Source: Lacunisphaera sp. (GTDB lineage: Bacteria; Verrucomicrobiota; Verrucomicrobiia; Opitutales; Opitutaceae). Taken from it: a stretch of 64,000 bases of DNA. The stretch's first letter is position 1; every line of letters begins with the position of its first letter. Positions 671-8,601 of this stretch are shown piece after piece. The stretch lies in assembly GCA_029945445.1 (NCBI GenBank), contig JAQSCO010000057.1, positions 46,985 through 110,984 of the forward strand, written 5' to 3'. The position numbers and the translations under genes were made by a program. Under the pieces are notes generated by a model. That model had not been told where the DNA came from, ran no database searches, and saw only the letters and a list, made by a program, of their open reading frames with translations.

Positions 671-1333
671 ATGAAGTCGAAGATTTTTGCGTCAGTCGGC
701 TCGGTTTTCTTCAGCGCAATCCTGCTCACGGCCCTGCCCGCGGCGGATAAGGCCCCGGCGTCCGCCGCCCCGTCCGGCTTTGCCTTCGTCGATACGGCCG
801 GCGCCGACGTGGCCGGCCTCACGGAATACGGCAGCAAAACCATCGAGCAGGTCGGCGCCCTGCTCATCTCCGAGACTGCCCGCGAACTCGCCACCAAGGA
901 AACCGCCCTGGCCGTCAGCGTGCTGCACCTGAAGAATCTCGAGCTGCCGAAGCCCACGGCCGGCAAGCCGACGGTCACCGCCATCAAGTTCACGAGCGTG
1001 CTGGTGCGCAATCCCCTGAACACCCCCGATGCGGCCGACCAGGCCGCGCTCGACAAGATCCAGGGCGAACTCGACAACGACCGCCCGGCCCCGAAGCTGC
1101 TCCTCCAGCGCGTCGATCACGCGGGCGCGGCCGCCGAGTGGCGCGTCTACCGCCCGATCGCCGCGACCCAGTCCTGCCTCGCCTGCCATGGTGACCCGGA
1201 AAAATTCCGGCCCGGCGTCAAGGAGGCTCTCGACCGCTTTTATCCGAACGACAAGGCCACCGGCTACTCGGCGCACGAGTGGCGCGGCTTCATCCGCGTG
1301 TCGCTCTCCGATCCGACGGTGGCGGCGAAGTAA
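671..1333 (+). CDS. Tll0287-like (DUF3365) single-haem periplasmic protein
   Basis: 220-residue exported protein. An N-terminal signal peptide (about residues 1-25, ending LLTALPAA) precedes a domain with one c-type haem motif, CLACH, at about residues 175-179. The GDPEKFRPGVKEALDRFYPNDKATGY stretch after the haem and the closing GFIRVSLS strand resemble the Tll0287/DUF3365 family, a PAS-like haem-binding fold used in sensing or electron transfer. The gene is convergent with the flavin/2Fe-2S reductase, 21 bp away. It lies next to a multihaem cytochrome block, so a redox role is likely. The ATG at 671 follows a pyrimidine-rich leader with no Shine-Dalgarno. The family name is recalled from motif pattern, not searched. 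Confidence 0.8.
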   Translation: MKSKIFASVGSVFFSAILLTALPAADKAPASAAPSGFAFVDTAGADVAGLTEYGSKTIEQVGALLISETARELATKETALAVSVLHLKNLELPKPTAGKPTVTAIKFTSVLVRNPLNTPDAADQAALDKIQGELDNDRPAPKLLLQRVDHAGAAAEWRVYRPIAATQSCLACHGDPEKFRPGVKEALDRFYPNDKATGYSAHEWRGFIRVSLSDPTVAAK

Positions 1334-1354: not shown

Positions 1355-2584
1355 TCAGGCATCGAGCACCACATCGCCGCTGGGCTGGGCGATGCAAGTC
1401 AGGCAGGTGCGCGCCTCCGGCAGGAGACCGGGCGGCTGCACGTAGCCGACCTCGCCGGATTGCATCGCCACGACACAGGTGCCGCAGTGCCCGGCGCGAC
1501 AGCCTGAAGGGATGGCGATGCCGGCACTTTCGGCCAGTTCCAGCAGCGAGCCGCTCCCTTCGCTCCAGGCCAGGGTCCGGCCGCTCTTGCGGAAGCTGAC
1601 CTGGCAGCGCGCCGCGCGCACGGGCTCCAGCCCGCTCGTGGCGCGGCTGACCTGCTTCACGCTGGAGGCGCCGAATGTCTCGTAGTGCAGGTGCGCCTCG
1701 GGCACGCCCCACTGCCGGAGCTCCTTGGTCAGCGCCTCCATCATCGGGCCGGGCCCGCAATAATAGAAACGGTAGTTGTTCGACGGCAGCACCGCCCGGA
1801 GCAGTTCGATCGTCACCCGGCCCCGGATCTGGTAATCCTCGCCCTCGCGGTCGTCGGGGCGCGGCTGCGAGTAGCAAATCCGCAGCTGGATATTCGGATT
1901 GTCGCGCGTCACCTCGGCGAGCTCCTTGCGGAAAAGATGGTCACCGCCGTGGCGCACCCCGTAGAAAAACCAGATCACGCGGCGGCTCTGCTGGTGGACC
2001 AGCGTGTGGAGCATGCTCAGGACGGGCGTGAGGCCGATGCCGCCGGCGACGAGCACCACCGGCTCCGGGTCCGTGGGCTCGAGGAAGAAATTTCCCGCCG
2101 GGGCGCGGACATCGAGAATGTCACCCTCCTGCACCTCGCTGTGGAACAGCCCGGAGCCGAGGCCCGTCATGCGCTTGATCGTGACCCGGTAGTGGCCGGC
2201 GTGCGGGCGGTCGCTGAGGCTGTAGCAGCGGACCAGTTGCCCGCTGCCCTGCGGATGCGGCAGCTGGAAGGTGAGATACTGCCCGGGCTTGAAGGTGGGG
2301 AGCGGCCGCGCGTCGTGCGGCACGAGGTAGAAGGACCGGACGTCGGAATTTTCGATGACCCGGCGCTGGACGACGAACTTCCGCACCCCGTTCCACGGAA
2401 ACGGCCGGTCGGCGAGCTGGTGGCGGGTCTCCCGCAGCGTGGCGAGTTCTTCCTTCAGCTGGGCGATCTCCAGTGATTGCCGGAGGGCGTCGGCCCGCTC
2501 CCGCTGCAGGCCGGCCAGCAGGCTCAGGGCGAGCTGCCCGATGACCAGCAGGATGAGGGCGGCACCAAGGTAAGTCCAAAACAT
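1355..2584 (-). CDS. Membrane-anchored ferredoxin reductase (FAD/NAD domain + 2Fe-2S)
   Basis: 409 residues from the ATG at 2584. A single N-terminal membrane segment (FWTYLGAALILLVIGQLALSL) is followed by a short coiled stretch, then an FAD-binding barrel with RCYSLSD (flavin motif RxYS), an NAD-binding half with GGIGLTPVLSML and YYCGPGPMM, and a C-terminal plant-type 2Fe-2S domain (CRAGHCGTC plus a distal CLTC). This is the layout of oxygenase-type and flavohaemoglobin-type reductases, which move electrons from NAD(P)H through FAD to a 2Fe-2S centre. The frame is open to 2704, but those 40 extra residues have no membrane-protein character, so the later start is chosen. It is transcribed divergently from the multihaem operon and may feed it. 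Confidence 0.88.
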   Translation of the reverse strand: MFWTYLGAALILLVIGQLALSLLAGLQRERADALRQSLEIAQLKEELATLRETRHQLADRPFPWNGVRKFVVQRRVIENSDVRSFYLVPHDARPLPTFKPGQYLTFQLPHPQGSGQLVRCYSLSDRPHAGHYRVTIKRMTGLGSGLFHSEVQEGDILDVRAPAGNFFLEPTDPEPVVLVAGGIGLTPVLSMLHTLVHQQSRRVIWFFYGVRHGGDHLFRKELAEVTRDNPNIQLRICYSQPRPDDREGEDYQIRGRVTIELLRAVLPSNNYRFYYCGPGPMMEALTKELRQWGVPEAHLHYETFGASSVKQVSRATSGLEPVRAARCQVSFRKSGRTLAWSEGSGSLLELAESAGIAIPSGCRAGHCGTCVVAMQSGEVGYVQPPGLLPEARTCLTCIAQPSGDVVLDA

Positions 2585-2802: not shown

Positions 2803-3822
2803 ATGGCCCTGCTTAAGCCCCGACGCTGGATCCAATCTGTCGCCCTAGCCGCCCTGCTCCCCCTGCCCGTCATCGCCGCACCAGCCGTCGCCAAGACCGG
2901 CGGACCGGCCTCCTGCGCCGAGTGTCACCTGCAGGAAATCGAGGCCTGGAAGCTCAGCGTGCATTTCAAGACGCTGAACACGATGCACCGGCGGCCTGAG
3001 ACCGTGGCCATGCTCGCCAAGCTCGACCTCAAGAACATGAAGTCCGAGGCGAGCTGCATCGAATGCCACTACACCAGCGAGCTCGTCATGGACCAGAGCC
3101 AGGTCACCACCGGCATCTCCTGCGAATCGTGTCACGGCGCCGGCGCGGACTGGGTCAAGACCCACGGCGACTACGGCGAGGGTGTCACCAAGGCGACCGA
3201 GTCCACCGAGCACCGCACCCGGCGCCGGGCCACCGCCATCGCCAACGGCATGCTGAACCCGGACAACCTCTACGGCGTCGGGGCCAACTGCTACGGCTGC
3301 CACATCCTCAATGACGAAAAGGTCGCCAATGTCGGCGGCCACTCCGCCGGGAGCGCCGGGTTCAACCTGCTCACCTGGTCGCAGGGCGAGGTCCGCCACA
3401 CCATCCTCGCGCACGACAACAAGGCGAACCCCGAGGCGACGCCCGAGCATCGCCGCCTCCTTTACCTCGTCGGCTGCATCCTCGAGACGGAGTTCAGCTT
3501 CCGCGCCACGGCCCGCGCGACCGAGAAGGCGGCCTTCGGGATCACCAGCGCCCGCCGGGCCGACGCCGCGCGCAAGCAGCTGGAGAAAATCCAGTCGCTC
3601 GCGCCCACGCCCGAGCTGGCGCCGATCATCACGGTGGCCAAGGCCGCCGGACTGCGCCTGAACAATGTCGCCGAGCTCACCGCCGCCGCCGACCGGATCG
3701 CCACGCTCGGCCACGAGCTCGCCGAGCGCGTCACGGGCGACAAGCTCGCCGCCCTCGACCCCCTCCTCCCGGACTCCGCCCAATACAAGGGCACGCCCTA
3801 CCAAGTAGTCGCCAAGCCGTGA
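2803..3822 (+). CDS. Tetrahaem cytochrome c (c554-like)
   Basis: 339 residues from the ATG at 2803, which directly begins a signal peptide (basic KPRR then SVALAALLPLPVIAAPAVA). Four CxxCH haem sites occur at residues 38, 85, 107 and 163 (CAECH, CIECH, CESCH, CYGCH), all in the N-terminal half. The spacing and the GISCESCHGAGADWVKTHGDY context resemble the cytochrome c554 family of periplasmic electron carriers. The C-terminal third is helical, haem-free and rich in Ala/Leu. It is the first gene of a rightward run reaching 8601, with 22 bp to the next gene. An upstream in-frame ATG at 2755 gives a poor leader and is rejected. Confidence 0.88.
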   Translation: MALLKPRRWIQSVALAALLPLPVIAAPAVAKTGGPASCAECHLQEIEAWKLSVHFKTLNTMHRRPETVAMLAKLDLKNMKSEASCIECHYTSELVMDQSQVTTGISCESCHGAGADWVKTHGDYGEGVTKATESTEHRTRRRATAIANGMLNPDNLYGVGANCYGCHILNDEKVANVGGHSAGSAGFNLLTWSQGEVRHTILAHDNKANPEATPEHRRLLYLVGCILETEFSFRATARATEKAAFGITSARRADAARKQLEKIQSLAPTPELAPIITVAKAAGLRLNNVAELTAAADRIATLGHELAERVTGDKLAALDPLLPDSAQYKGTPYQVVAKP

Positions 3823-3844
3823 TCGGCCGGCCACACTGAACGCC

Positions 3845-5599
3845 ATGGCGAAATCCGCGAGCCGTCCCCCTGTCCGTCCCGGTTCGACCGCGCCTTACAC
3901 GGCGGCCAAGCGGCTGGCCGAGCCCGAGCGCTGGGACGTGCCCTTCAGCACGGACATGACCGAGGCCGACGTCGACCTCGTGCTCTCGCATTCGCTGTTC
4001 GCCAGCACCCGCGCGGACCGCTTCCCGGCCTCCATCCCGCTGCGGGGCGTGCTGAAGAACGACGCCCGCATCCGCCGGCTCCAGCAGGGCGAGATTGTCG
4101 TGCGCCAGGGGGACTACGGCCACTCGGCCTTCATCATCCTGACCGGGGCGGTGCGGGTGCTCATCAAGGAGCCGCCCGCCGAACTGCTCGGCCGGCGCGA
4201 GCGCGTGCGCCCGTCGGTGTGGGGCAGCCTCAAGCGCTGGCTCAACCGGCCGCGTTTCGCCGAGCAGACCGCCGCCCGCGGCAACCACCCGGGCTGGCAG
4301 GTCGGCCGGGGCGGCGAGCCGCGGATTTTCCTGCAGGACGTGCCGGGCGTGCTCGAGGCCAACGGCACGGTCGATCTCGGTCCGGGCGAGTTCTTTGGTG
4401 AGATCGCTGCGCTCGGGCGCACGCCGCGCACGGCCACCGTGATCGCGAAGGGCGACGCCCAGCTGCTCGAGATCCGCTGGCAGGGCCTGCGCGAACTCCG
4501 CAACTATGCCCCCGAGTGGAAGCAGGAGATCGACCGCCGCTACCGCGAACGCAGCCTTATCACCCACCTGCGCGAAACACCGCTGCTGTGGGGTCTGGAC
4601 CCGGCCACCCTCCAACTCGTGGCCGACGAGACCCGCTTCGAGACTTTCGGTGAACTTGACTGGCACGGCACCTACGCCCGCGGCCGCGAGGGCGGTGAAA
4701 AAGCGCGGCTCGAGCAGGAACCCATGATCGCCAAGGAAGGCGACTACCCCAACGGCCTCCTGCTCGTGCGCAGCGGCTTCGCCCGCGTCAGCCACATCTA
4801 CAACCACGGCGAGCGGACCGACACCTACCTCGCCAAGGGCGAGGCCTTCGGCCTCCCGGAGATCGCGACCGGCTGGCGGAGCCAGCAGCACGTCCCGCTG
4901 CGCTCCAGCCTGCGCGCGCTCGGTTACGTGGACTTGCTCTTCATCCCCACCGCGGTGCTCGAGCAGCACGTGCTGCCGCGGCTCCCCGCCGCAGAGCTGG
5001 CGAAACTGACGCTGGCGCCCGCGCCGGAGATCGAGGTGTCCGCCGTCGAGAAGACGGAACGCGGCGGGGAGAACTTCCTCGAGTTCATCGTCGCCCAGCG
5101 CTTCATCAACGGCCGTGCGACGATGCTGATCGACCTCGACCGCTGCACGCGCTGCGACGACTGCGTCAGCGCCTGCGCGGCGACGCACGACAACAACCCG
5201 CGCTTCATCCGCCAGGGCCCGGAGGCCAGCGGCGTGATGGTGGCCAGCGCGTGCATGCACTGCGTCGACCCCGTCTGCATGATCGGCTGCCCCACCGGCG
5301 CCATCCACCGGGAGAGCGCGGACGGCCAGGTGGTCATCAATCCCGACACCTGCATCGGCTGCAGCGTCTGCGCCCACAGCTGCCCCTACGGCACGATCCA
5401 GATGGTGGCATTGCACGACGACGAGGGCCTGCCCGTCGTGGCGGAGGAGACCGGGGCGCCGATCCGCCGCGCCACCAAGTGCGACCTCTGCGTCGACCTG
5501 CCGGGCGGGCCGGCCTGCGTCCGCGCCTGCCCTCATGACGCCCTGATCCGGTCCGACATGCGCGATGTCAGCGCCCTGACCGAGTGGCTGCACCGATGA
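3845..5599 (+). CDS. Cyclic-nucleotide-binding domain protein fused to a four-cluster ferredoxin
   Basis: 584 residues, no signal peptide, so cytoplasmic. Residues about 73-220 form a CRP-type cyclic-nucleotide-binding domain whose phosphate cassette GEFFGEIAALGRTPRTATVI (181-200) is canonical; a roughly 65-residue insertion (about 112-175) interrupts it. Residues about 255-390 look like a second, degenerate domain of the same kind. Residues 430-565 form a HybA/DmsB-like iron-sulphur unit with four Cys quartets: 434/437/440/444, 470/473/478/482, 503/506/509/513 and 546/549/558/562, each suited to one 4Fe-4S cluster. There is no DNA-binding helix-turn-helix. It overlaps the following membrane gene by ATGA, so the two are translationally coupled. 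A nucleotide-sensing electron carrier is inferred. Confidence 0.9.
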   Translation: MAKSASRPPVRPGSTAPYTAAKRLAEPERWDVPFSTDMTEADVDLVLSHSLFASTRADRFPASIPLRGVLKNDARIRRLQQGEIVVRQGDYGHSAFIILTGAVRVLIKEPPAELLGRRERVRPSVWGSLKRWLNRPRFAEQTAARGNHPGWQVGRGGEPRIFLQDVPGVLEANGTVDLGPGEFFGEIAALGRTPRTATVIAKGDAQLLEIRWQGLRELRNYAPEWKQEIDRRYRERSLITHLRETPLLWGLDPATLQLVADETRFETFGELDWHGTYARGREGGEKARLEQEPMIAKEGDYPNGLLLVRSGFARVSHIYNHGERTDTYLAKGEAFGLPEIATGWRSQQHVPLRSSLRALGYVDLLFIPTAVLEQHVLPRLPAAELAKLTLAPAPEIEVSAVEKTERGGENFLEFIVAQRFINGRATMLIDLDRCTRCDDCVSACAATHDNNPRFIRQGPEASGVMVASACMHCVDPVCMIGCPTGAIHRESADGQVVINPDTCIGCSVCAHSCPYGTIQMVALHDDEGLPVVAEETGAPIRRATKCDLCVDLPGGPACVRACPHDALIRSDMRDVSALTEWLHR

Positions 5600-6417
5600 A
5601 ACCTTTCGTCCGCCGCCGCTGGATTCTCTCACTGGTCACGCTCGGCGTTGCGCTCGTGCTGGCGGGCACGTGGCGCCTCGGCCACATCGCGCTGCGGCCC
5701 GTCGCGATGTATAGCGGGTGGTTGCTGCTAGCCCTCGTGCTGGGGCTCGCGTTTTTCAACGCCCGGAAGAAACTGCCCTTCCTTCCGCTGCTCGACGCGA
5801 ACACCTGGCTGCAGGGGCACATCTATGCGGGGTGGGTCGCCGTGTTCGTTTATTTTCTGCACGCCGGTTTCCGCTGGCCGGACGGCCAGCTCGAGTCGCT
5901 GCTCGCCCTCGTGTTCTACGTCGTGGCCGCCAGCGGCGTCTTCGGCCTCTGGCTGAGCCGGTGGCTGCCGCCGCGCCTCGCCCGCTCCGGCGAAAGCCTG
6001 GTCTATGAGCGCATCCCCCTGCTCCGCCACCGGCTGCTGGCGGAGGTGAAGCAGACGGTGCGCCAGGCCGAGACCGAGACGCAGTCGACGACGCTCGGTG
6101 ATTTTCACCTGCACTTCCTGAGTGGATATTTCTCGCGCCGGCCCGGACTCCTGTCGCCCCTGACCGGCGAGGACCGCGCCCACCACCGCGTCAGCCGCGA
6201 GCTCACGGCGCTGCGCCGCTTTCTCAACGACCGCGAGGCGGCCTTCGCCGACCAGCTCGCCGAGTTCGTCGAGACGAAGCGCAATCTCGACTTCCAGCTC
6301 GCGGGGCAGCGGCTGCTCAAGGTCTGGCTCTTCGTGCACGTGCCGCTGACCTTCGCCCTCCTCGTGCTGCTGGCCGCCCATGTGTGGCTCGCCCTCAATT
6401 TCTCGCACCGGCTCTGA
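5596..6417 (+). CDS. Integral membrane protein, possible b-type cytochrome subunit
   Basis: 273 residues with about five membrane spans: near residues 10-28, 34-50, 70-90, 98-118 and 243-266. His residues sit inside or at the edges of spans (GHIYAGWVAVFVYFLHAGF and WLFVHVPLTFALLVLLAAHVWLAL), the pattern seen in cytochrome b561 and ferric-reductase-like haem b proteins. The long hydrophilic stretch between the fourth and fifth spans (about 125-240) is charged and probably cytoplasmic. The ATG overlaps the stop of the ferredoxin-like gene (ATGA) and the stop lies 3 bp before the decahaem gene. It is therefore the likely membrane partner of the complex. The alternative start at 5584 only adds three residues. 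Haem binding is inferred. Confidence 0.8.
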   Translation: MKPFVRRRWILSLVTLGVALVLAGTWRLGHIALRPVAMYSGWLLLALVLGLAFFNARKKLPFLPLLDANTWLQGHIYAGWVAVFVYFLHAGFRWPDGQLESLLALVFYVVAASGVFGLWLSRWLPPRLARSGESLVYERIPLLRHRLLAEVKQTVRQAETETQSTTLGDFHLHFLSGYFSRRPGLLSPLTGEDRAHHRVSRELTALRRFLNDREAAFADQLAEFVETKRNLDFQLAGQRLLKVWLFVHVPLTFALLVLLAAHVWLALNFSHRL

Positions 6418-6420
6418 CCC

Positions 6421-8601
6421 ATGCGCCGCCTTCTCCAGAGCATCATCCACAACCGCAAGCTCTACGACCGGCCGCAGGACGAGTGGACGTGCGGCCGCGC
6501 CGCCGAGGGCTGCGCCTGCGTCTTCGGCCCCGGGGCCAAGGGCGAATGCCGGGCGACCAGCCAGTGCCTGCCGGCCAAGCAGGGCGACCGGTGGGTCTGC
6601 ACGCGCGCGATCTCCCTCGGGGCGGCCTGCGCGCCGGGCCCGCTGCCCGACGGCTCCTGCGGTTGCCCGGTGCCGCCCTGCCGGCCGGTGCGCAGCTTGC
6701 GCAGCCAGCGCGGCCGGCTCACCTGGCTCGCTGTCTGTGCCGCGCTGGGCGTGGTGCTGCTCGCCCTGTGGGGCCGCAGCGGCCAGGCGTGGACCAACCC
6801 CGGCCCGCTGACCGCCCAGCACGCCACGTCGGCGCAGCGCTGCTCCGACTGCCATGTCGAGCCCGCGACGGTCGCGGTCACCGCCGTCGCCGCGGCGGCC
6901 CGGCGCGCCGCGCACGACACGCTGTGTCTCAAATGCCACGACCTCGGCCGGCACGGCCGGTCGCCGCACGGCGTCGAGCCGGCCGACCTCGCCCGGGTGA
7001 GCGCCGCCACCAAATCCAACCTCGCGAAAGTCCCCGTGTGGCTGGCCGCCGCCCAGCCGCTGGTGCGCGGCATCGCGCCCGACCTCGCCTGCGCCGCCTG
7101 CCACCAGGAACACCACGGCCGGGATTTTGCGCTCAAGCAAATGTCCGACCAGCAGTGCCAGGTTTGCCACCAGGGACAGTTCGCCAGCTTCGGCGACGGC
7201 CATCCGGAGTTCACGGACTATCCCTACGAGCGGCGGACCCGCCTGCACTTTGACCACACGGCCCACCTGCAGAACCACTTTCTCCTCCGGCAGGTGGTCG
7301 CGCGGGCCCCGACCTCCTGTTCCAGCTGCCACGAGCCGGCCGGCGACGGCCGCCAGATGCTGGTGCGCGACTTCGCCCAGAGCTGCGCGAAATGCCACGC
7401 CGGCCAGATCGAGGGCGAGGGCCGGGCGGGCGCCAAGGGCCTCGTGTTCCTCCGCCTCCCGGAATTCGACACCAATGCGCTGCAGGCGGCCGGCGAGCCG
7501 GTCGGGGAATGGCCGGCGTTTTGCGAAGGCGGGCTCACCCCGTTCATGCGCTGGATGCTGGAAGGCGACGTGGTGGCGCGCGACGCGCTCGGTGTCCTCG
7601 GCCCGGCCAATCTCGCCGATCTCTCCGCCGCCACCCCGATGCAAAAGGCCGCCGCCGCCCGGCTGCTCTGGAGCGTGAAGGGCCTGCTCGCCGACCTCGT
7701 CGCGCAAGGCCAGGGCGTGATGCTGCGCCGCATGGCCTCGCCGACCAAGACCGGGCGCACCGGCCAGCTGCCGGCCGACAGCCTGCTCGCCGTGCAGCAG
7801 GCGTGGCTGCCCAACCTGCTCAAGGAAGTCGCCGCCTACCGGCGCGGGGAAAAACCCGCGCTGCCCGTGCGGGCCGCTCCCGCCACCGCCAGCCTGCCCG
7901 CCGCCAAGCCCGGCGCGGCCAAGCCCGCGGCGGATGATGACCTGCTCTCGGACGCCCCGGCGGCACCGGTGCCCGCCGCCGTGACGGTGGCCGCTCCGCC
8001 GCCCGCCTCCCCTTCGCCGGCGCTGATCGAGATGGACGATGCCGAACTGCGCGTCGCCGAGGGCGGCTGGTATCGGCGGGACGAGACCTACACGCTTTAT
8101 TACCGGCCGGACGGCCACGCGGATTCCTTCCTGACCGCGTGGCTCGACGCCACGGCCGGCGATCCCTCGTCGTCGGCGCGCGCGATTTTTGCCCAGCTCT
8201 CCGACCCGCAGGCGCCCGGGCTCTGCATGAAATGCCATTCGGTCGACACGACCAAGAGCGGCACGCTCGTGAACTGGTTGCCGGCGCGACCGGAACCCAA
8301 CCACCACAAATTCACCTTCTTCAAGCACGCGGCCCATTTCAGCCTGATGGGCGACCAGGGCTGCAAGACCTGCCACGCCCTCGACGCCAAGGCGGACTAT
8401 GCCGCGGCCTTCGGCACCAATCGCGACCCCGCGATCTTCCACAGCAACTTTGCGCCGCTCAGTAAGGACACCTGCGCCACCTGCCACCAGCCCGGGGCGG
8501 CCGGCGCGAGCTGCCAGCAATGTCACAACTATCACACGGGCACCTTGCAGACCCTGCGGGCCCCGGTGTCGGATTTCAAGCGACCGTCCACCGGCAACTG
8601 A
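6421..8601 (+). CDS. Decahaem cytochrome c with cytosolic Cys-rich head and one membrane span
   Basis: 726 residues. Residues 1-92 hold ten Cys (24, 31, 33, 43, 49, 60, 70, 80, 82, 87), none in a CxxCH motif. One membrane span follows (about 101-118). The rest carries ten CxxCH sites at 141, 169, 224, 246, 300, 322, 602, 648, 685 and 698, split six plus four by an Ala/Pro-rich linker (about 480-535). The topology suggests a cytosolic metal-binding head joined through the membrane to a periplasmic multihaem wire. Extra His residues (HFDHTAHLQNH, HHKFTFFKHAAHF) can be distal haem ligands. It is the last gene of the run. The head may accept electrons from the ferredoxin-like protein; this is inference. 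Confidence 0.88.
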   Translation: MRRLLQSIIHNRKLYDRPQDEWTCGRAAEGCACVFGPGAKGECRATSQCLPAKQGDRWVCTRAISLGAACAPGPLPDGSCGCPVPPCRPVRSLRSQRGRLTWLAVCAALGVVLLALWGRSGQAWTNPGPLTAQHATSAQRCSDCHVEPATVAVTAVAAAARRAAHDTLCLKCHDLGRHGRSPHGVEPADLARVSAATKSNLAKVPVWLAAAQPLVRGIAPDLACAACHQEHHGRDFALKQMSDQQCQVCHQGQFASFGDGHPEFTDYPYERRTRLHFDHTAHLQNHFLLRQVVARAPTSCSSCHEPAGDGRQMLVRDFAQSCAKCHAGQIEGEGRAGAKGLVFLRLPEFDTNALQAAGEPVGEWPAFCEGGLTPFMRWMLEGDVVARDALGVLGPANLADLSAATPMQKAAAARLLWSVKGLLADLVAQGQGVMLRRMASPTKTGRTGQLPADSLLAVQQAWLPNLLKEVAAYRRGEKPALPVRAAPATASLPAAKPGAAKPAADDDLLSDAPAAPVPAAVTVAAPPPASPSPALIEMDDAELRVAEGGWYRRDETYTLYYRPDGHADSFLTAWLDATAGDPSSSARAIFAQLSDPQAPGLCMKCHSVDTTKSGTLVNWLPARPEPNHHKFTFFKHAAHFSLMGDQGCKTCHALDAKADYAAAFGTNRDPAIFHSNFAPLSKDTCATCHQPGAAGASCQQCHNYHTGTLQTLRAPVSDFKRPSTGN

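Follow-up and report, generated by a model that had tools for sequence, protein, structure and literature searches.

PCC4 is a putative porin–cytochrome system, itself described as a prediction only (He, Barco, Emerson and Roden 2017, PMC5566968). As far as the available parts of that paper go, it consists of a porin, 4-, 5- and 10-haem cytochromes and a five-helix inner-membrane protein with SGXXG and two WX3HX13H motifs, is reported from Planctomycetes and from Zeta-, Gamma- and Alphaproteobacteria, and in its subgroup II, which includes Planctomycetes, has a pfam13247 iron–sulphur (Fe-S) gene upstream of the gene for the inner-membrane protein. Here we analyse a related gene set in a 64,000-nucleotide stretch of Lacunisphaera sp. 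DNA (assembly GCA_029945445.1, contig JAQSCO010000057.1; hereafter the window), which comprises four genes, P1 to P4, and a divergent reductase gene, RED. With slightly better than even confidence, we read these genes as encoding an inner-membrane electron conduit, corresponding to the inner half of PCC4 as predicted, that would carry electrons from NAD(P)H to the periplasm and would be gated by a cyclic nucleotide.

The window module resembles the inner half of PCC4

Comparison with PCC4 revealed that the window's P3 has five helices, with WLQGH..H at residues 71–89 in the third transmembrane helix (TM3), SGVFG at 113–117 in TM4 and WLFVH..H at 244–262 in TM5, matching the SGXXG and WX3HX13H motifs of the PCC4 inner-membrane protein. 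P2 matches PF13247 (39.7 bits; cut-off 26.2) and lies directly upstream of P3, as in subgroup II, and P1 and P4 are a tetrahaem and a decahaem cytochrome. The original prediction had called the module a candidate undescribed one, which is not supported in view of these shared parts (PMC5566968, in its available portion). PCC4 further has a redox gene of specified domain make-up upstream of the tetrahaem gene; a possible counterpart in the window, RED, adjoins P1 divergently. The window differs from PCC4 in having an added gene, TLL. It also differs in that no porin or pentahaem cytochrome was detected in the cluster or the genome; we therefore regard the module as the inner half of PCC4 rather than a full member. 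Besides PMC5566968, the term PCC4 occurred only in PMC13264449 among the open-access matches listed, the latter being available in part. The features of the module, in window coordinates, are as follows.

2803–3822, plus strand: P1, tetrahaem cytochrome of the cytochrome c554 superfamily (4 CXXCH; PF13435, 1.5e-15).
3845–5599, plus strand: P2, a ferredoxin with four 4Fe-4S clusters, preceded by cyclic nucleotide (cNMP)-binding domains (Pfam; P2 alignment).
5596–6417, plus strand: P3, five-helix membrane protein, probably binding two b haems (His motifs, SGXXG, AlphaFold2 (AF2) model).
6421–6708, plus strand: Cys-rich N-terminal domain of P4, predicted to be cytoplasmic (8 Cys in the alignment; AF2 model).
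6709–8601, plus strand: membrane helix of P4 and then its decahaem cytochrome c, predicted to be periplasmic (10 CXXCH; helix at 93–125 in the model).
1355–2584, minus strand: RED, reductase (Pfam FAD_binding_6, NAD_binding_1 and Fer2 (2Fe-2S); N-terminal hydrophobic helix from hydropathy and sequence).
2585–2802, no strand: shared divergent intergenic region, candidate promoter/operator (5-sequence alignment).
671–1333, plus strand: TLL, stand-alone Tll0287-like (sCache_heme) mono-haem c protein (PF11845, 5.3e-15).

P1 to P4 are four open reading frames (ORFs) on the same strand, with a gap of 22 bp between P1 and P2, a 4-bp ATGA overlap between P2 and P3, and a gap of 3 bp between P3 and P4, the ORF of which spans 6421–8601. 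P1 contains 4 and P4 contains 10 CXXCH motifs, 14 together. In 5,000 shuffles of each protein, the motif occurred on average 0.009 times for P1 and 0.05 times for P4, and at most once and twice, respectively. Gene starts follow a simple ORF rule that places some of them too far upstream; the RED ORF reaches 2704, and its Met41 start (2584) was chosen because that is the form in relatives. These calls agree with the original prediction, which had listed four adjacent genes with gaps or overlaps of at most 22 bp, 14 c-type haems, four 4Fe-4S quartets and a flavin/2Fe-2S reductase diverging from a 218-bp region, the size of 2585–2802 with the Met41 start. The eight-Cys N-terminal domain of P4 and the TLL protein had not been part of it.

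The P2–P3–P4 core is conserved across phyla

Loci were gathered through P2, and all counts concern P2-bearing loci only. P2 was found in 13 of the 288 genomes of a phylum search at E 1e-30 or better, and a one-genome-per-species tblastn scan (E 1e-3) contributed the best 80 of at least 524 relatives, a number that can include plain ferredoxins. The 94 loci examined include the window (L030) and two regions in duplicate (L018/L032 and L019/L035). Where enough flank was available, P3 followed P2 at 90 of 91 loci and P4 was present at 79 of 81. According to record titles, the hosts belong to Verrucomicrobiota, Planctomycetota, Alpha- and Zetaproteobacteria, SAR324, Nitrospinota, Omnitrophota and Poribacteria, and the best 80 loci come mostly from uncultured bacteria of soil, sediment and water. 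P2, P3 and P4 thus stay together across phyla, and this linkage, together with the invariant P3 His pairs described below, gives good support to the original idea of a membrane-crossing electron module.

For one planctomycete P2 (L065:238–2007), neither P3 nor P4 was found in the 6 kb downstream; among the P2 genes whose flank is long enough, it is the only one not accompanied by P3. Genome G121 has one copy in which RED and P4 are each broken up into several ORFs, plus a second, partial copy (L024 and L029), which reflects either assembly error or decay.

Conserved residues suggest probable cofactors of P3, P2 and P4

Both WX3HX13H motifs occur in 88 of 92 P3 ORFs, SGXXG in 87 and all three motifs in 84. 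In an alignment of 64 of the 75 listed rows plus the window (A2), His75, His89, His248 and His262, which make up the two HX13H pairs, are invariant (65/65 rows), in keeping with the earlier description of His residues placed like haem b ligands. The AF2 model (predicted local distance difference test (pLDDT) 94.7) has five helices and a helical insert of approximately 110 residues between TM4 and TM5; by the positive-inside rule, the N-terminus and the insert would face the cytoplasm. The invariant His pairs fit a membrane-spanning stack of two b haems, which P3 probably holds. Up to E 1, P3 matched nothing in Pfam or NCBIfam, and searches of Protein Data Bank (PDB) sequences revealed no relative of P3 or P4. 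Fold comparison of P3 included a cytochrome b561 (4o6y; Z 8.0, root mean square deviation (rmsd) 3.3 over 139 residues) and an NADPH oxidase (8qta; Z 6.8, rmsd 4.1 over 127) amid unrelated helical proteins of similar or higher Z; both lend weak support.

P2 matches cNMP_binding (91.9 bits) and Fer4 families in Pfam, and its NCBIfam matches all lie far below their cut-offs. Each of its 16 cluster Cys is conserved in 92–94 of 94 aligned rows, which contain two duplicates and the window twice. In the first cNMP domain the phosphate-binding cassette is intact (FGEIAAL..PRTAT), and G185, E186 and R195, which we take to be its Gly-Glu and Arg, are conserved in 94, 94 and 93 of the 94 rows. The window's genome contains 11 matches to the PF00211 cyclase domain. 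FHA domains were found on P2 in all three extra-long copies scanned (L021, L057 and L082). Of five long copies of RED, four have them as well (L021, L057, L064 and L082; not L084); the scan covered these copies and not further long ORFs of either gene, for example those of L034 and L068. Together with the cNMP pocket, these FHA domains indicate that signal inputs on the cytoplasmic electron carriers recur. P2 is therefore read as probably a cyclic-nucleotide receptor, through which cyclic AMP (cAMP) or cyclic GMP (cGMP) would switch electron flow. The open-access matches listed revealed no cNMP-binding ferredoxin beside multihaem cytochromes; the term 'cyclic nucleotide-binding' has a count of 0 in the available text of PMC5566968, and 'cyclic nucleotide' occurs 0 times in that of PMC10734462.

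P4 starts with a Cys-rich domain of approximately 90 residues, N-terminal to the membrane helix, in which two four-Cys repeats (24, 33, 43, 49 and 60, 70, 80, 87) are followed by an Arg-rich stretch immediately before the helix. Because of this stretch, the positive-inside rule places the N-terminus inside, and the repeats would therefore lie on the cytoplasmic side and the decahaem part outside. The eight Cys are invariant in 59 of 59 rows of an alignment of 58 of the 73 listed rows plus the window (A3); the rows left out include L102 with only one of the two Cys repeats, L027 and L028 with none of the domain and L070 with a degraded domain. The domain was modelled by AF2 with pLDDT 88.4 and likely binds metal. 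It had no Pfam match; a profile of it against PDB sequences gave nothing below E 0.03 (five chance-level rows, best E 0.038), and fold comparison gave no match at Z of at least 2, with just two chains compared.

P1 carries a signal peptide, read from its sequence, and both it and the haem part of P4 are presumably periplasmic. It is the loosest member of the gene set. Tetrahaem P1 lies directly upstream of P2 on the same strand at 44 of 83 loci, and a three-haem relative lies on the opposite strand at 24; the remaining cases are one over-long ORF with two CXXCH, four loci with a tetrahaem P1 further off and ten at which none was found. P1 was likewise not found at L031 or in the sibling genome G122, which is assembled in one contig and retains the remainder of the module.

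The outer half varies among loci and was not detected in the window's genus

A porin-like gene of approximately 490 residues, porA, lies near the core at 23 of 94 loci, and its product ends in Phe at 20 of them. A pentahaem cytochrome gene, c5, lies near the core at 22 of 94; one or both are present at 25 loci, which match PCC4 as described. They include the Mariprofundus locus L058 (porA–RED–P1–P2–P3–P4). At other verrucomicrobial loci, mostly of Opitutae (L036, L037, L043, L047 and L050), RED–porA–c5 share a strand and P1–P4 occupy the opposite one; L046 has the same arrangement without a detected c5, and at the related locus L039, where RED adjoins P1, no porA or c5 was seen. Many loci labelled as having no porin are cut by contig ends.

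A second set was found in other Verrucomicrobiota, including the window's own family: porB (approximately 790 residues) lies near the core at 13 of 94 loci, and c10B, a large, mostly decahaem cytochrome, at 8 of these 13. No locus has both sets, and comparison of the porA and porB profiles indicated no homology (probability 0.3 per cent). We infer that both are porins because of their size, their low Cys content, their signal peptides and a C-terminal residue that is mostly aromatic; one porB matches PF13372 below its cut-off, and no such family hint was seen for porA. Clusters in karst metagenome-assembled genomes that combine a large decahaem cytochrome, a porin and a ferredoxin–NADP reductase (PMC13264449) resemble the porB/c10B form, by description only and in the part of that paper available.

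Profiles were built from the longer, more regular members (A4–A6 and A8; 18 of 23 loci for porA, 17 of 22 for c5 and 8 of 13 for porB), and those of porA and c5 were searched against the window's genome (G000) and its genus siblings G122, G155, G075 and G274, three of which carry the module. The porA profile found nothing in these five genomes, whether or not it contained the G126 copy, and with that copy held out as a control it detected G126 at 1.6e-167; a strongly diverged porin could evade it. The c5 profile detected the same control at 2.4e-286 and found nothing in the four siblings; in G000 it gave only a 23-position match (E 0.004) inside an 8-haem TPR protein. porB was not found in G000; its profile matched G160 by construction, and a held-out repeat, on collected ORFs only, gave 1143.9 bits. 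None of three porin types tested was found in the sibling G075, which has the module.

TLL is present at 9 of the 94 loci (7 distinct), none of which carries porA, c5, porB or c10B, so that among the collected loci it is confined to the porin-less form. In a quick tree of 91 P2 sequences, supported by SH-aLRT (approximate likelihood ratio test) values only and built after 4 of 95 rows were dropped (the L029 fragment and the duplicates L030, L032 and L035), the TLL group forms one clade (SH-aLRT 100). This clade is nested in 22 mainly verrucomicrobial rows, 10 of them with porA or c5 (SH-aLRT 97), making loss of the outer half the likely history; the porin and pentahaem cytochrome were probably lost in the window's genus.

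A flavin oxidoreductase is fused to a P2 homologue on a Sphingobium plasmid

RED was found at 62 of the 69 P2 loci with enough flank. The original prediction had stated that no catalytic oxidoreductase is present; this stands for the four genes themselves and needs qualifying for the divergent FAD/NAD/2Fe-2S protein, a regular partner of the core and a probable entry point for NAD(P)H.

On a Sphingobium plasmid (AP027325.1, 635720–648913; L138), a P2 homologue (199 bits) carries an N-terminal pyridine nucleotide-disulphide oxidoreductase (PF13738 and PF07992). It is followed by a P3 homologue (77 bits), a decahaem P4 homologue (153 bits), whose N-terminus looks FHA-like (PF16697 below cut-off), and a gene annotated as cpdA, a cAMP phosphodiesterase. 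The window's P3 as a plasmid query gave no match; the distant Sphingobium homologue was found beside the P2 match. No RED homologue was detected among the eight plasmid genes tested. The fusion, the strongest clue to function, suggests a flavin NAD(P)H module as the electron source of P2, the role of RED elsewhere. The P3 homologue occurs in 12 Sphingobium records, of which this one was examined.

A proposed gated path from NAD(P)H to the periplasm and its alternatives

In the reading that we favour, electrons from NAD(P)H would enter through RED, where FAD would hand them to 2Fe-2S. The four 4Fe-4S clusters of P2 would receive them next, the two b haems of P3 would conduct them over the membrane, and they would exit to the periplasmic decahaem P4 and tetrahaem P1, with cAMP or cGMP on P2 probably acting as the switch. 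In the window's genus the acceptors would be periplasmic carriers (P1 and TLL) or another conduit. The data show gene content, conservation, co-occurrence and the non-detection of the porin; the cofactors, the order of transfer and the gating are what we infer, and the path NAD(P)H–RED–P2–P3–P4–P1 is favoured because the Sphingobium fusion points to flavin feeding of P2. The outward direction is the least certain part.

Several observations weigh against this path. The second cNMP domain of P2 looks degenerate in the window protein as aligned, and both nucleotide binding by the first pocket and its effect on electron flow are predictions. RED was not found at 7 of the 69 loci with enough flank, and two relatives of the same class, L027 (8005–12543) and L028 (7292–11723), show P2–P3–P4 only. 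The fold comparison of P3 is topped by unrelated sensor domains with rmsd of approximately 7 to 9, and the cpdA neighbour, known from one record, could be coincidental. No biochemistry on the module was found in the open-access literature searched, and the available part of PMC5566968 depicts electrons moving from an external donor into the quinone pool. In their minimal form, L027 and L028 have a long P3, a 10-haem P4 lacking the Cys-rich domain and a second cNMP domain that looks intact; no RED or P1 was found at either.

The module could instead take up electrons: a donor in the periplasm or outside the cell would pass them to P1 and P4, and they would continue by P3 and P2 to RED and make NAD(P)H there. 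PCC4 has been modelled in this way in iron oxidisers (PMC5566968, available part), and the gene order of the Mariprofundus locus would suit such a role. We nevertheless consider uptake unlikely here: neither linked porin type was found in the window's genus, most hosts are not known iron oxidisers as judged by record titles alone, and uphill reduction of NAD+ would need a driving force that no part obviously supplies. A quinone-active cytochrome b, as proposed in the available part of PMC5566968, would have P3 exchange electrons with the quinone pool and leave P2 and RED regulatory or secondary; the cytochrome b561 among the low-rmsd fold matches of P3 is in line with this. It is made decidedly improbable by the finding that nearly all loci, themselves collected through P2, retain P2 with its 16 cluster Cys beside P3, and by the Sphingobium fusion, in which the P2 homologue itself carries a flavin NAD(P)H oxidoreductase. 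A low-flux device that reports the periplasmic redox state to cNMP and FHA signalling, rather than respiration, would account for the presence of both domain types and for TLL, a haem Cache protein whose stand-alone relatives have been assigned redox-related roles (PMC12889525, available part). Fourteen c haems and four 4Fe-4S clusters would be a costly outlay for a sensor, and a Pfam scan of the window proteins showed no kinase or cyclase output domain, so we give this explanation very little credence.

The usual view is that gene expression and substrate supply control the electron transfer chains of respiration and extracellular reduction or oxidation. A conduit with a receptor on its electron-carrying subunit would, if the favoured reading is true, offer direct and fast control, and the system could matter to electron disposal in uncultured soil, sediment and water communities. 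As a kind, the inner-membrane conduit of a predicted porin–cytochrome system is already known; new with respect to the open-access matches listed are the porin-less form of the genus, the swapping of unrelated outer parts, the cNMP and FHA inputs and the Cys-rich domain. The Sphingobium fusion near cpdA was likewise met in no paper searched. Tentatively, and at somewhat less than even confidence, these features may mark an unrecognised set of phylum-crossing, ligand-gated electron conduits, in which P2, at times with FHA, would be the receptor, the eight-Cys domain of P4 would dock on the cytoplasmic side and a plug-in core would join at least two unrelated porin–cytochrome exits or none. The porin-less form isolates the inner-membrane step and thereby makes the PCC4 prediction testable.

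Other electron transfer systems and neighbouring features

The window proteins include no catalytic subunit and the NCBIfam matches of P2 are too far below cut-off to assign the module to the Nrf, Nap, Dms or Hyb systems, as originally noted. The ferric reductase/NADPH oxidase family (FRD, PF01794) shares with the module a chain of NAD(P)H, flavin and two b haems held by HX13H pairs (PMC5566968, available part). It differs in that the window's parts are distributed among several proteins, with 4Fe-4S clusters as the relay and multihaem cytochromes as the exit, and P3 has no FRD sequence match. The MtrAB/PioAB-type porin (PF11854) had no match in the window's genome, a search for which the controls gave just one below-cut-off match.

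Other Verrucomicrobia have clusters of a porin and an octahaem cytochrome, for which electron transfer to humic substances has been proposed (He et al. 2017, PMC5615132, available part); they share the phylum of the window and constitute an outer-membrane system. An unlinked pair on contig C54 of the window's genome (L125:7589–10630) is perhaps this system: it consists of an ORF with 7 called CXXCH, versus the 8 sites of that paper, and a 739-residue porin-like protein that is Cys-poor, has a signal-like start and lacks a Pfam match. Relatives of the 739-residue protein occur in 15 of the 288 phylum genomes. A tie to the module was rejected: the two co-occur in 7 of 288 genomes, but within family f1 the protein is present in 5 of 9 genomes with the module versus 8 of 16 without it. 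Two 8-haem TPR cytochromes are encoded elsewhere in the genome (L122:7617–9839 and L123:6909–9173).

Nothing intervenes between RED and the promoter region in the window's group, and TLL lies beyond RED. Alignment of the intergenic region, a candidate promoter/operator, with four genus-group relatives revealed that the block at about 2713–2756, around TTTCAGCTTGCGC, is its longest well-kept stretch; inverted repeats in the region are short or imperfect only. The block, on the RED side, is kept in these four relatives, including two in which P1 was not found.

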